This document shows, in pieces, positions 1,499 through 6,806 of a DNA stretch of 35,363 nucleotides. The first letter of the stretch is position 1. The number at the start of each line of letters is the position of its first letter. Source of the DNA: Bacteroidales bacterium (GTDB lineage: Bacteria > Bacteroidota > Bacteroidia > Bacteroidales > UBA1556); assembly GCA_016937295.1 (NCBI GenBank), contig JAFGWF010000005.1, positions 1-35,363 of the forward strand. The letters are read 5' to 3'. The position numbers were made by a program, and so were the translations under genes. The notes below the pieces were generated by a model that made no database searches, was not told where the DNA came from, and was given only the letters and a program-made list of their open reading frames with translations.

Positions 1499-4384
1499 AT
1501 GAATAACCGCTTTTTTCTTTTATTAGTCGTTTTCGTAACTTTTAATTTTCAACTATTGGCTCAACTTCCTGTTGCTTTTCCTGAAAGTCGAGTTTTTCCG
1601 GAAGATTCTACAATGCTCGAAACGTTGAACCAAGAGGTAAAAAATGGTAACTTAGACTCTTTGCTAATCACAGCGGACATCTATGCGCAACGCCTTTTGG
1701 CTCAGAAAAATATTCCGGCATATTTGTTCTTGATGAACCAAACTTCGGTCAATCTCATTGGCATTTTTCGCAATCTGAATCTTGCCGACTCGATTCAGGA
1801 AGTCGCTATGCACACAGCCATCAAATCGACTGATACTTTGAATATAGAATTTGCAATGCTGATGAAATTTCGTGGCACCAATTTTTTCTATCAATACAAA
1901 GACCAAGAAAGTGTAAACTACTTTATGCGAGGACATAACATTATGAAATCCTTGAAAGATACCACCAGGGTTTTCACCGATTTTAAAGCTAATGTTGGAA
2001 ACGGGCTGCTGAATCTCGGACGGCCTTATGAAGCTTTGCCATTTATGGAAGAAGCACTCGCAGAGTCGAAATATTTTGGTGACGGACTATTGTATATGAT
2101 TGTCAGTCAAGGTCTTGCTCATATCGCTTTTAAAACGGATGTGCGTCTCGGAATCGAAATTATGACTAAGGTTGAACGGGATGTGAAACAGGTGAATTTA
2201 GACAGTAATATGTTGAATAAATTTCTGGCTAATATAAATTATATGCTTTCAGGCTATTACGGAAAACTCGGAGATAAGGAAATGGAAACTGCCCTGGTAC
2301 AAAAATCAAGACAGTATATCAATAATTCCTTAGTTCCGGATTTGTACTTAAGAATGAATATCTTACGTCAGAACCTTTATGATGCAATGGATGCCGGAGA
2401 TGTGGAACTCCAAAAATCAGTAATGACAGACATTGAGCATTCTATAAAAAAATATGAAATTGAGGATCCTTTGCTTTTGGCTCCGGTTTATTACACGTAT
2501 TACCAGTCGTATCATAGCCGAAATATGACTGAAGAAGCTGCTATGTACAAAAAAATGGTGATTGAAGCTGTGGGAGACAAACCTTCCCGTGAGCGCATCG
2601 AAGCATATAGCTTATTGATGACTTATTCTGAAATTCCGGAGGAAAAACTCCGCTATGCTTATCGCACCATAGAAAACTTTTTGGATAGTTTTAACATCGA
2701 AAATCTCAAAAATGACTCTCTGATCCTCAACACAATAGACATTTATAATATCTATCAAACCATGATTCCTTCGTTGATGGTAATTGGAAATTATTATCGC
2801 GATTTTGCCGCTGGTGATGCTCATGAGAACTTAGAAAAATCCATCAAAGTTTACAATTTATTGGCAGAGGTTGTTCTAAGAAGTTCCAATGGTGTGATTG
2901 AGGATGCCTCCGGGTTACGATATTCCAAAATTTACGAAAACATTGTCAATCAGCAATTAAGAGCTCTTTTTTCTTTAAATTCTTTGGAAAACAAGTCGAA
3001 AACTCAAGAGCAGATAGTTGACGCAATCGCTTCATCCCAATCGTTTTTCCTTCAAAAGCAAATGGCCTTCAGGAAGCGAAATACTTCCGAAGAGTCCGAA
3101 TCCCTTTGGAACGATTATTTTGAGCAACTCCTGAAAAAACGACACCTTAAGACCAAATTTGATCAGTCGCAACTAACGGATAATCCGATGAGTAAAATTG
3201 CTTATGAAGATTCGGCAATGAAAATTTCTACAGAGCTTATCAAGTTGCAAATCAGGATGAATAATGAAAATTTGCTTTATGCTCCAAAAATTTTGGCATA
3301 CAATGCCTCTGAAATTCGTCAGCAATTGAAGCCGGATGAAGCATTGCTTAATTATTATGTCGATGGCGATTCTCTTTGGTATTCGGTTTTGATTACCAGC
3401 GAAAACATCGTTGTGAAATCTTACACAAGTTTTTCAGTCGTAAAAACTTTGATTGCCGCAGTTTCCCGAAAATTGAAAAGTGGGGAGACAGTTTTATCTG
3501 CAGAAAATCAGCAGCTTAGCAAGTTGTTGATTGGAGATATTCCTAACGGAATACATCGTCTGATAATCATTCCCCATAAAGACTTATGGAAAATCCCTTT
3601 TGAGATTTTGAGCTTGGATGGAAGCAAGTTGTTAGTGGAAACTCACAGCATCGTCTATCATAACTCTCTGAATCTATGGATGGAATCGGCAATGAAAAAG
3701 CAGAATCTCACGCCATCGTTTGCCGGTTTCGCACCTGTTTTTAATGGAAAGTCTAACGACCTTACGATGCGCAGTGGCAATGTGGACTATTTTGCAGAGC
3801 TTTATAATGCCAAACGTGCTGAGTTAGACCATCTTCCTTATTCCAAACTTGAGGTTGAAAAAATTGCTAAGTTGTTTAAAAACAATGATGTAGAAGCTCT
3901 TTCGGCCTATGGAAAAGACGCCACAGAAGATGCATTTCGACATTCGATCAACAAATATGCTATCATTCATATCGCCACACATGGCTATGTTTCTAAAACT
4001 AATCCAGAGTTTACCGGCATTTTCTTCGCAGAAAATTCCACTAAAATAGATGACGCGTATCTCTTTTCGGATGAAATCAGTAATCTAACCCCAAAAGCTC
4101 ATCTGATTGTTTTAAGTTCTTGTAATTCAGGTAGTGGGCGTATTGAAGGAAGCGAAGGTATCAACTCTCTACAGCGCTATTTTATTCTTGCAGGCGTGCC
4201 AAATGTGATGGCTTCACTTTGGAAAGTGCACGACCAAAAAACGATGCTTTTGATGAATGACTTTTACAGTTACTATCTCAACGGTAATGATTATGCGACA
4301 AGTTTGCAGAAAGCCAAGCAAGAAGCCATAAAACGTGGGGAGTTGCCGTTAGACTGGGCAGGATTTATTCTCATTGGCCGATAA
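1499..4384 (+). CDS. Exported TPR-repeat CHAT-domain protease-like protein
   Basis: 961 aa; Sec-type signal peptide 'MNNRFFLLLVVFVTFNFQLLAQ'; helical TPR-like middle; C-terminal CHAT domain with 'IIHIATHGYVS' (His828) and 'LIVLSSCNSGSGRIEGSEGINSLQRYFILAGVPNVMASLWKV' (Cys875). Confidence 0.92.
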   Translation: MNNRFFLLLVVFVTFNFQLLAQLPVAFPESRVFPEDSTMLETLNQEVKNGNLDSLLITADIYAQRLLAQKNIPAYLFLMNQTSVNLIGIFRNLNLADSIQEVAMHTAIKSTDTLNIEFAMLMKFRGTNFFYQYKDQESVNYFMRGHNIMKSLKDTTRVFTDFKANVGNGLLNLGRPYEALPFMEEALAESKYFGDGLLYMIVSQGLAHIAFKTDVRLGIEIMTKVERDVKQVNLDSNMLNKFLANINYMLSGYYGKLGDKEMETALVQKSRQYINNSLVPDLYLRMNILRQNLYDAMDAGDVELQKSVMTDIEHSIKKYEIEDPLLLAPVYYTYYQSYHSRNMTEEAAMYKKMVIEAVGDKPSRERIEAYSLLMTYSEIPEEKLRYAYRTIENFLDSFNIENLKNDSLILNTIDIYNIYQTMIPSLMVIGNYYRDFAAGDAHENLEKSIKVYNLLAEVVLRSSNGVIEDASGLRYSKIYENIVNQQLRALFSLNSLENKSKTQEQIVDAIASSQSFFLQKQMAFRKRNTSEESESLWNDYFEQLLKKRHLKTKFDQSQLTDNPMSKIAYEDSAMKISTELIKLQIRMNNENLLYAPKILAYNASEIRQQLKPDEALLNYYVDGDSLWYSVLITSENIVVKSYTSFSVVKTLIAAVSRKLKSGETVLSAENQQLSKLLIGDIPNGIHRLIIIPHKDLWKIPFEILSLDGSKLLVETHSIVYHNSLNLWMESAMKKQNLTPSFAGFAPVFNGKSNDLTMRSGNVDYFAELYNAKRAELDHLPYSKLEVEKIAKLFKNNDVEALSAYGKDATEDAFRHSINKYAIIHIATHGYVSKTNPEFTGIFFAENSTKIDDAYLFSDEISNLTPKAHLIVLSSCNSGSGRIEGSEGINSLQRYFILAGVPNVMASLWKVHDQKTMLLMNDFYSYYLNGNDYATSLQKAKQEAIKRGELPLDWAGFILIGR

Positions 4385-4412
4385 AAAAAGCCGACTAGTT
4401 GCATAGCCGGCC
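4383..4412 (-). terminator. Rho-independent terminator for the minus-strand lipoprotein gene
   Basis: Minus strand reads GCCGGCTA-TGCAAC-TAGTCGGC followed by TTTTTTT; 8-bp stem with one G-U pair. Confidence 0.65.
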
Positions 4413-4458
4413 TAAATGAAAAAAGAATGAGTAATTGCTTACCCGGGAATAATTTGGT

Positions 4459-4908
4459 TTAATTTGCGATATAGGTATTAAATATTGGTTTATAACCTTG
4501 TAAAATATCCCCAACTTCAACCTTCAAGATAAACTTGTCGCTGTCTTCGCTGTCGGACCACTCTTCAGTTCCTAAATCAGCAGTTTCAGTGCGATCAAAC
4601 TCCCATTGAAAGGTGTTTGCATCATATAAATAAATATCATAAGTAATTGATACAGCGTACTCTGTGTCGCTCTCAATATCCTTATATTCTGAATCTTCAC
4701 CTTTTGCAACGGCTCCAAACTTAATATCACCAAGAGAAAAATCTTTGATATTGTACTTCATAAATGGAAGGCCTAAAAGCGTAATTTCGCAGGAATTCCT
4801 CACCTTAGCTTGATAGGTTTTTTTATCTTTCTTACAACTTGTTGAAACCATTACCATAGCCACAACCATCAACATTACTAATCCTTTTACATAGTTAATT
4901 CTTTTCAT
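4459..4908 (-). CDS. Small lipoprotein, unknown function
   Basis: 149 aa; N-terminal hydrophobic stretch ending in lipobox-like 'VSTSCKKDKK'. Confidence 0.75.
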   Translation of the reverse strand: MKRINYVKGLVMLMVVAMVMVSTSCKKDKKTYQAKVRNSCEITLLGLPFMKYNIKDFSLGDIKFGAVAKGEDSEYKDIESDTEYAVSITYDIYLYDANTFQWEFDRTETADLGTEEWSDSEDSDKFILKVEVGDILQGYKPIFNTYIAN

Positions 4909-5218
4909 ATTCTTACAATTTAGGTTTAAATTAAAAATTTATTGTCGCTTATTGGTTGCATCTGTAATGAGTTTTTGAAAAGAAAAATGAAGAATTTTAT
5001 AACAAATATTAATTTGATTTTTGATAATCTATTATTTTCTACGCGTCTTTATTTCAAAACGACAACCAACCTGCAACTAATGAGTTGAATAGACCAAGTT
5101 TGGAGTTATTGATTCTTGGCTGATTTGTTCTTTGAAACTTTGTTCTTTATCTAAAAGCTCAAAACTCTCCACTGCCTGAAAGAGTTTTTGTGTAATTTTG
5201 GAGTTTTAGAATTACAGA

Positions 5219-6025
5219 ATGCCAATGTTTGGAATCGGGAAATCAAAGAGTCATCAAATCAGGCGTTTAGAGCATGACAAGCTTATGGAGCTTGCTCAAA
5301 AAGTGGTCAAACGGTACGTAAATCGTGGCTCTGTTCCTCGCAGAGAAGAGGAAGACATGACCATGACTGTAATTGAAAAATTTTTACAGAAAGAAGAGAC
5401 CATTTACGCTTCCTTTCAAGGCCAATCTCAAATTTCCACTTATTGCATTGCCATCCTAAACCGCATGACTTGTGAGGTAATTCGCAAAGAAATGAAACAT
5501 TGGTCGCTTACGGAAGGCGAGGAAGATTTGACTTCAACTAAAGAATCGCTGAGCCAAACCGACTATTTGATGATTAAAGATGAGGTGCTAAATCTGACCC
5601 GACTTTTGCTTTTCTTTGGTGATGAACGCCATAAAATTAAACTGTTTTTCGCATTTTACTATCGCCTTTCTATAACTCATACAGATTTAGAAGCTTACGA
5701 TTTCGACTATTTAGCACATTCTCTCGATAAACTTTTTACAACCAACGAATCCATGTCGAAAGGTGAAATATTCACCATCCTTTCGGAAGTAGTGCGGCGT
5801 GTAGAAAGTCGCCAAGCCCAACCAGATGCGATTCGGATGTGGCTCAACAAAGTTCGAAACTCACTCATTACCAGACTTAACCTCGGTTGTGGAAGTTCAG
5901 GCTACGATAAAGAAAGTTTTCAAGCATTATTTGAATTTTATTACAACGACTCGATTGAGAAAGAAACTCAACATATAGATTATCAGGATTTTAGCTCCTT
6001 GAACCAATCTTTGGAAATAGTATAA
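5219..6025 (+). CDS. Atypical sigma-70 family (ECF-like) RNA polymerase sigma factor
   Basis: 268 aa; region-2-like 'EEDMTMTVIEKFLQKEETIYASFQGQSQISTYCIAILNRMTCEVIRKEMKHW'; only a degenerate region-4-like end 'AIRMWLNKVRNSLITRLN'; followed directly by an anti-sigma-like gene. Confidence 0.75.
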   Translation: MPMFGIGKSKSHQIRRLEHDKLMELAQKVVKRYVNRGSVPRREEEDMTMTVIEKFLQKEETIYASFQGQSQISTYCIAILNRMTCEVIRKEMKHWSLTEGEEDLTSTKESLSQTDYLMIKDEVLNLTRLLLFFGDERHKIKLFFAFYYRLSITHTDLEAYDFDYLAHSLDKLFTTNESMSKGEIFTILSEVVRRVESRQAQPDAIRMWLNKVRNSLITRLNLGCGSSGYDKESFQALFEFYYNDSIEKETQHIDYQDFSSLNQSLEIV

Positions 6026-6041
6026 ACCTAAATAGCCATCT

Positions 6042-6806
6042 ATGGACGAAATAAATCATCTAAACGAAGAAGCTTTGGCGCAAGCAGCCGATGCTGTGGC
6101 TTCTAACAACTATGATCATTTGCCTAATGAGATTAAAACCCATTTGGCCGAATGCGATCAATGTGCTGCTGAAGTAGTGGCTATTTCTCAGATATTGGAT
6201 GAAACTCATTCCGAAACGATAAGCATTCCCTTCTATAAAACTTCCTTATTCCGTGCAACTATTGGTGTGGCTGCTCTTCTCGCCATAGTTTTTGGTTTCT
6301 ATTTTATCTTTAATTCTTCTCCCGATAATTCCACTCGTTTTGCCGATCAAACGGATACTAATCAAGTGATTGCACCAAATGAAAAGGAAAACCAAACCTC
6401 ACCGAATTTCGACACCATTCAAAATAATGAGCCTGCACCAAAAGCAAATCAAAGAACTAATCCTGCTAACGATAATCTTTTAGCATTCAACACTAATGAA
6501 GATTTAGAAAAAGTTTATCTCCGCCACCAAGACGGTGTTATGCGTAGCAATGATGTGAAAATTTCGGCAGACTCAGTTATTTCTATTTCAAAAGGGAAAA
6601 GGCTATCTATCGCCTGGGAAGCAGATGGTTCTGAGTTGATTTTTGAAATATGGAATAATAAAAATCAGAAAGTTGTTGAAAAATCGACCAACGCAACTAC
6701 CGGACTTAATCTTCCTGCTCCCGAATCTGCCGGACTCTACTACTGGAAACTGCTCAATGCTGATTTTGAGTTGGTTTACTGTGGAAAAATTAGAGTGGAG
6801 GAGTGA
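6042..6806 (+). CDS. Membrane anti-sigma factor with zinc-binding motif and extracytoplasmic C-terminal domain
   Basis: 'HLAECDQCAAEV' = H-x3-C-x2-C; one TM segment 'ATIGVAALLAIVFGFYFIF'; beta-rich C-terminal domain; 16 nt downstream of the sigma gene. Confidence 0.8.
   Translation: MDEINHLNEEALAQAADAVASNNYDHLPNEIKTHLAECDQCAAEVVAISQILDETHSETISIPFYKTSLFRATIGVAALLAIVFGFYFIFNSSPDNSTRFADQTDTNQVIAPNEKENQTSPNFDTIQNNEPAPKANQRTNPANDNLLAFNTNEDLEKVYLRHQDGVMRSNDVKISADSVISISKGKRLSIAWEADGSELIFEIWNNKNQKVVEKSTNATTGLNLPAPESAGLYYWKLLNADFELVYCGKIRVEE

Follow-up and report, generated by a model that had tools for sequence, protein, structure and literature searches.

In the RseA-sigmaE-DegS-RseP and RsiW-sigmaW systems, an anti-sigma factor with one transmembrane (TM) helix is cut by a protease on the periplasmic side (site 1) and subsequently by an M50 protease (site 2). 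The site-1 protease is DegS or PrsW in these RseA/RsiW systems, whereas the candidate in the locus described here is a caspase-like CHAT protease. The DegS-dependent proteolysis of RseA is summarised in PMC10028731, where cleavage of Csx30 by Csx29 is also proposed, with supporting data, to lift sigma-factor inhibition in type III-E CRISPR.

The locus lies in a 35,363-nucleotide stretch of DNA from a Bacteroidales bacterium, analyzed as a whole and hereafter called the window. As in the type III-E CASP/Craspase system (Csx29, Csx30 and CASP-sigma; PMC10028731), a CHAT protease gene adjoins the genes for a sigma factor and its inhibitor. Craspase, however, is cytoplasmic and guided by Cas7-11/RNA, and Csx30 does not belong to the one-TM zinc-motif anti-sigma factors, whereas here the protease is predicted to be exported and the anti-sigma factor to span the membrane. 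A three-part switch of protease, anti-sigma factor and ECF sigma factor is also found in the CalpL/CalpT/CalpS type III CRISPR system (PMC11417357), although the protease there is a cytoplasmic, cA4-activated Lon protease and the candidate here is of the CHAT type. Caspase-fold protease genes beside sigma factors occur, furthermore, in metacaspase/sigma-70 operons (PMC3501461) and in caspase-ECF sigma neighborhoods with EACC2 (PMC8195603). These differ in involving other caspase types and other phyla, and in the available parts of the two papers an exported CHAT protein is not paired with a one-TM anti-sigma factor. The searchable literature, mostly without subscription papers, yielded no coupling of CHAT with a sigma/anti-sigma pair outside CRISPR, the analogues being cytoplasmic CRISPR systems only. 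The fixed-spacing promoter-like signature reported below is new here; the novelty of the CHAT-sigma coupling is provisional.

Gene set and protein architecture

The four open reading frames (ORFs) called in the first-pass annotation, for a CHAT, a lipoprotein, a sigma-like and an anti-sigma-like protein, were all confirmed in place. The CHAT gene (1499..4384, plus strand) is a separate transcription unit, beyond a convergent gene from the sigma pair. It encodes a 961-aa caspase-like protein, proposed to be an exported site-1-type protease and sensor, with orthologues in the same-genus MAGs that are 87%, 48% and 48% identical. The Pfam CHAT domain (PF12770, E=5.9e-51) covers residues 671-961 (3509..4381). 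The catalytic dyad first read from the sequence, His828 (codon 3980-3982) and Cys875 (codon 4121-4123), was borne out by this match and by the alignment, where both residues fall on the CHAT catalytic columns, with H in 72 and C in 72 of the 78 aligned rows and the rest being fragments or split matches. A PDB sequence search with the protein gave no match. CHAT proteins were found in 134 of the 247 genomes sampled from the order, with around 14-18 matches per genome in G026, G036 and G057. At one locus (L104) two CHAT proteins lie side by side, and their His-containing and Cys-containing parts align as separate segments.

Of the earlier designation TPR-CHAT, the CHAT part held; for the TPR part, Pfam found no such repeat in the window protein, although TPRs precede the CHAT domain in relatives at L015, L149, L157, L163 and L066. 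The CHAT proteins of L012 and L147 also gave no TPR match at E<=0.001. By hydropathy and inspection, the N-terminus of the window protein (MNNRFFLLLVVFVTFNFQLLAQ; roughly residues 1-21, ending in LLA before Q; 1499..1561, plus strand) resembles a signal peptide. The same approach identified hydrophobic N-termini in 57 of 71 CHAT proteins, and signal-like ones recur among the relatives. A C-terminal TM helix, mostly with a basic tail, is present in 18 of the 71; 14 of these 18 are ECF-linked and belong largely to one clade, where such a helix would hold the CHAT domain close to the inner membrane. The predicted export draws support from the conservation of the signal-like N-termini and, in the other CHAT clade, from the C-terminal helix and tail.

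Upstream (5') of the CHAT gene, the window holds a PIN-domain protein and a HEPN-matching ORF (255-671 and 1116-1469). The lipoprotein gene (4459..4908, minus strand) encodes 149 aa with the lipobox VSTSC and has orthologues in three MAGs (G005, G006 and G001).

The sigma-like protein (5219..6025, plus strand; 268 aa) had no match to a sigma family in Pfam, and by itself it matches TIGR02937 at E=3.6e-5, under the curated cut-off; 23 of the 27 members of its family match this model. Profile comparison placed a sigma2 region at residues 17-95 (hhalign probability 96.9%, E=1.8e-10) and found no sigma4 match in the C-terminal half (160 residues), which may harbor a diverged, insertion-bearing sigma4. 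The sigma-like label stands as far as sigma2 is concerned, with no detectable sigma4, and activity as a sigma factor is putative. The AlphaFold2 (AF2) model is helical along its whole length; a Foldseek search with it against the PDB gave nothing significant, listing sigmaE region 2 entries at low rank only, and PDB sequence searches with the sigma and anti-sigma profiles were likewise without significant matches.

The anti-sigma-like protein (6042..6806, plus strand; 254 aa) has no Pfam match at E<=0.01. It carries the features of ZAS-type anti-sigma factors: an N-terminal helical domain with an HxxxCxxC zinc motif (H34, C38 and C41; 6141..6164), a single TM helix and a predicted extracytoplasmic domain. 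The motif is at least 90% conserved across 24 relatives, and the AF2 model consists of a three-helix N-terminal domain, predicted to be cytoplasmic, a TM helix at residues 68-91 (6243..6314; hydropathy peak at 72-90) and an Ig-like beta-sandwich at residues 179-253 (6576..6800). Conservation and model thereby agree with the original description of this protein, its topology being predicted. A low-confidence linker (residues 96-139), N-terminal to the Ig-like domain, could in the model be the place of a cleavage site. Por_Secre_tail was matched by three of the 24 relatives (best E=4.6e-5), and the ectodomain at 6576-6800 may for that reason share the fold of the T9SS sorting domain. An M50 (RseP-type) protease is encoded in the genome of the window (G000:C34), which lends weak support to regulated intramembrane proteolysis since M50 proteases were found in 14 of 14 control genomes too.

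Linkage of CHAT genes to sigma factors

Two MAGs of the same genus, Bacteroidales bacterium UBA6267 (G005; L010/L011) and G006 (L012), share the window's arrangement of CHAT, divergent lipoprotein, sigma and anti-sigma genes in this order. In a third, G001, the CHAT and lipoprotein genes are present at a contig edge, and the contig stops just beyond both. A close-relative scan of the genome contigs returned one locus. Within the order, a profile of the sigma family matched 22 of 247 genomes; across the phylum, it matched 2 of approximately 300 sampled genomes besides that of the window. Of the approximately 26 sigma-family loci, 11 had a CHAT gene within 5 kb of the sigma/anti-sigma family, distributed over several families and beyond the order: the window, G005, G006, G030, G137, G223, G208, G190, G376 (twice) and G467, with f21, f91 and f111 represented as well as two genomes that do not belong to the order. 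Under a rough density assumption, uncorrected for kinship, only 0.29 such loci would be expected. Gene order at these loci varies between divergent, convergent and, in G190, a same-strand operon. CHAT proteins were carried by 20 of the 22 genomes with the sigma family vs 114 of the 225 others (Fisher p=2e-4, uncorrected for kinship). In a CHAT tree made by a quick method, and again without kinship correction, the 11 linked CHAT proteins fall in one 19-row part (SH-aLRT 95). Linkage of CHAT with the sigma pair, on which the earlier proposal hinged, is hence conserved in relatives and strongly enriched. Roughly half of the sigma-family loci have no adjacent CHAT gene. At three loci of this kind, L016, L150 and L153 (in G032, G139 and G225), the sigma/anti-sigma pair is found beside tandem FtsZ-like genes.

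Linkage also extends to ordinary ECF sigma factors. Of 40 CHAT loci, chosen by score and one per genome, 14 lay within 2.5 kb of a sigma gene; given the 13-17 Sigma70_r2 genes that a genome carries, about 1.0 would be expected (kinship uncorrected). The CHAT proteins linked to ordinary ECF sigma factors and to one-TM anti-sigma factors with TPRs form a second clade. The product of the gene paired with the sigma gene is usually about 250 aa long and has one TM helix, and C-terminal TPR matches were found in all four such partners tested. As ECF-linked and window-type CHAT proteins occupy different parts of the quick tree, CHAT-sigma linkage has been maintained in at least two lineages.

Promoter-like signature and putative regulon

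In the genome of the window, a fixed-spacing signature, TTTCAAA-N13-TGCAACnAAT, was found upstream of the sigma gene, the lipoprotein gene and an unlinked operon for a 741-aa secreted protein. The copies in the window are TTTCAAA-N13-TGCAACCAAT before the lipoprotein gene (4951..4980, minus strand; at -51/-54) and TTTCAAA-N13-TGCAACTAAT before the sigma gene (5052..5081, plus strand). Upstream regions were aligned, the shared word was used for a 12-mer scan of four genomes, and the bipartite pattern was derived from the result. The 12-mer itself, GCAACYAATRRG, was too loose, its reversed control matching too, and was replaced by the bipartite pattern. Besides the sigma and lipoprotein genes, its scan had returned a match upstream of the gene for the 741-aa exported protein. 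The same spacing was found before the sigma gene in two genomes (G000 and G005), the lipoprotein gene in three and the 741-aa gene in four. With matches ordered by mismatches within each genome, the exact copies among the matches listed were three in G000 and three in G005 (sigma, lipoprotein and 741-aa gene in each) and one in G001 (741-aa gene). No clear match was found upstream of the G006 sigma gene.

The 741-aa gene was present in four of the eight genomes searched, these being only the genus members with a CHAT orthologue. It is part of an operon encoding exported proteins of 741, 175 and 316 aa (L012:13714-17488, L097:4009-7775 and L182), two of which match TPRs weakly; the motif lies upstream of it. 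This operon is unlinked to CHAT in G000 and G005 and adjoins it in G006 and G001, where the orthologue of the 741-aa gene is the divergent neighbor of CHAT.

Because the motif was recognised post hoc, its evidential weight comes from the held-out loci. With a matrix built from the training genomes, the upstream regions of 8 out of 22 held-out sigma loci were strongly positive (L013, L014, L015, L147, L148, L149, L151 and L152), a score that none of 300 shuffles reached, and control loci gave two equally strong matches in 887 kb. The L013 genome belongs to the same genus and was not part of the training set. The L014 match is situated about 580 bases upstream of the sigma gene with another ORF between, and that of L149 falls within the start called for the sigma ORF, a start whose position is uncertain. 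Further matches precede lipoprotein or secreted-protein genes in L013, L015, L147, L148 and L149. The other 14 held-out sigma genes, mostly more distant and including those of the CHAT-linked L157 and L163-L165, had no match. None of eight CHAT genes tested with the matrix had the motif upstream. In G009, G050, G182 and G090 the motif is kept with no CHAT gene adjacent, which means that the switch can also occur where CHAT is not linked to it.

The motif would be recognised by the sigma factor of the window. Its distribution supports, as far as sequence can indicate, a sigma factor that is autoregulated and has CHAT as its input. The lipoprotein, previously suggested as either a co-sensor or a regulon member, is by virtue of the common motif a likely member of the putative regulon.

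A candidate protease-gated switch and its alternatives

A protease-gated envelope-response switch is, in our judgement and with moderate confidence, the best explanation of the features found by computation, i.e. the gene set and its conservation, the linkage of CHAT to two sigma/anti-sigma classes, the catalytic residues, the anti-sigma architecture and the common motif. Through its cytoplasmic zinc-motif domain, the membrane anti-sigma factor would tether the divergent sigma factor to the inner membrane. The exported CHAT protease, transcribed from its own promoter, would sense an envelope signal and cut the anti-sigma factor on the periplasmic side, within the linker or the Ig-like domain, after which the RseP-type M50 protease and cytoplasmic proteases would release the sigma factor. 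Once released, it would transcribe its own gene pair, the lipoprotein gene and the secreted-protein operon from TTTCAAA-N13-TGCAACnAAT promoters. We infer the cleavage by CHAT from linkage, topology and analogy with Csx29/Csx30/CASP-sigma and CalpL/T/S; the envelope signal and the direction of the pathway are presumed.

The same gene neighbors would be expected if the genes served a common envelope response in which CHAT is itself an output or acts on another exported substrate, such as the 741-aa protein or the lipoprotein, the anti-sigma factor being freed by other proteases or by a ligand on its Ig-like domain. The many loci with sigma pair and motif and no adjacent CHAT fit this account, which we regard as unlikely, though a serious contender. 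The motif precedes sigma and secreted-protein or lipoprotein genes and is absent before all eight CHAT genes tested, which speaks against CHAT as a regulon output, a reading that was rejected; moreover, two unrelated anti-sigma ectodomains, Ig-like and TPR, recur beside CHAT. That CHAT is a scaffold or sensor, binding the anti-sigma factor and altering its stability without cutting, would agree with protease activity in this family being putative, yet the catalytic His and Cys are retained in nearly all aligned CHAT domains save fragments and split matches, which makes such a role highly improbable.

The cleavage of Csx30 by the TPR-CHAT protein Csx29, which is proposed to relieve sigma inhibition in type III-E (PMC10028731), could also point to an anti-phage version of Craspase signaling, and the first-pass annotation had left the choice between envelope stress and defense. 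PADLOC had no match for the six proteins tested, and Cas7-11, Csx30 and Csx31 were not found among the ten annotated ORFs of the first 11 kb. A predicted exported protease, a membrane anti-sigma factor and a putative regulon of lipoproteins and secreted proteins fit an envelope response better, and we consider defense quite doubtful. Part of the conservation lies within one genus and the statistics are uncorrected for kinship, as would suit a neighborhood that is due to chance or inheritance and has no functional meaning; recurrence across several families and beyond the order, with varied gene orders and two sigma classes, leaves this the barest of prospects, and it was rejected on conservation and enrichment.

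The protease-gated switch suggests, at the sequence level, that a caspase-type protease at the Bacteroidales cell envelope is used for switching genes on. We tentatively extend it, with reservations that outweigh our confidence, to exported CHAT proteins acting as site-1 proteases for widespread Bacteroidota anti-sigma factors in two parallel lineages, with Ig-like and TPR ectodomains, so that a caspase-type protease would turn envelope events into transcription; the lineage of the window would have a replaced or heavily remodelled sigma4 and the TTTCAAA-N13-TGCAACnAAT promoter. If true, gating sigma factors at the envelope would be a general role of CHAT, and caspase-type proteolysis would be part of ordinary bacterial transcription control. 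The linkage is directly testable, as the promoter signature names the genes expected under control.

Other genes also occur at the ECF-linked CHAT loci. Genes for exported C14 caspases (L082:2944-3837 and L110:5988-6860) share an operon with an ECF sigma factor, a one-TM anti-sigma factor and CHAT. An exported protein about 400 aa long is repeatedly encoded next to ECF-linked CHAT genes, at L064, L066, L071, L092, L094 and L107, with a Por_Secre_tail on the L094 copy.
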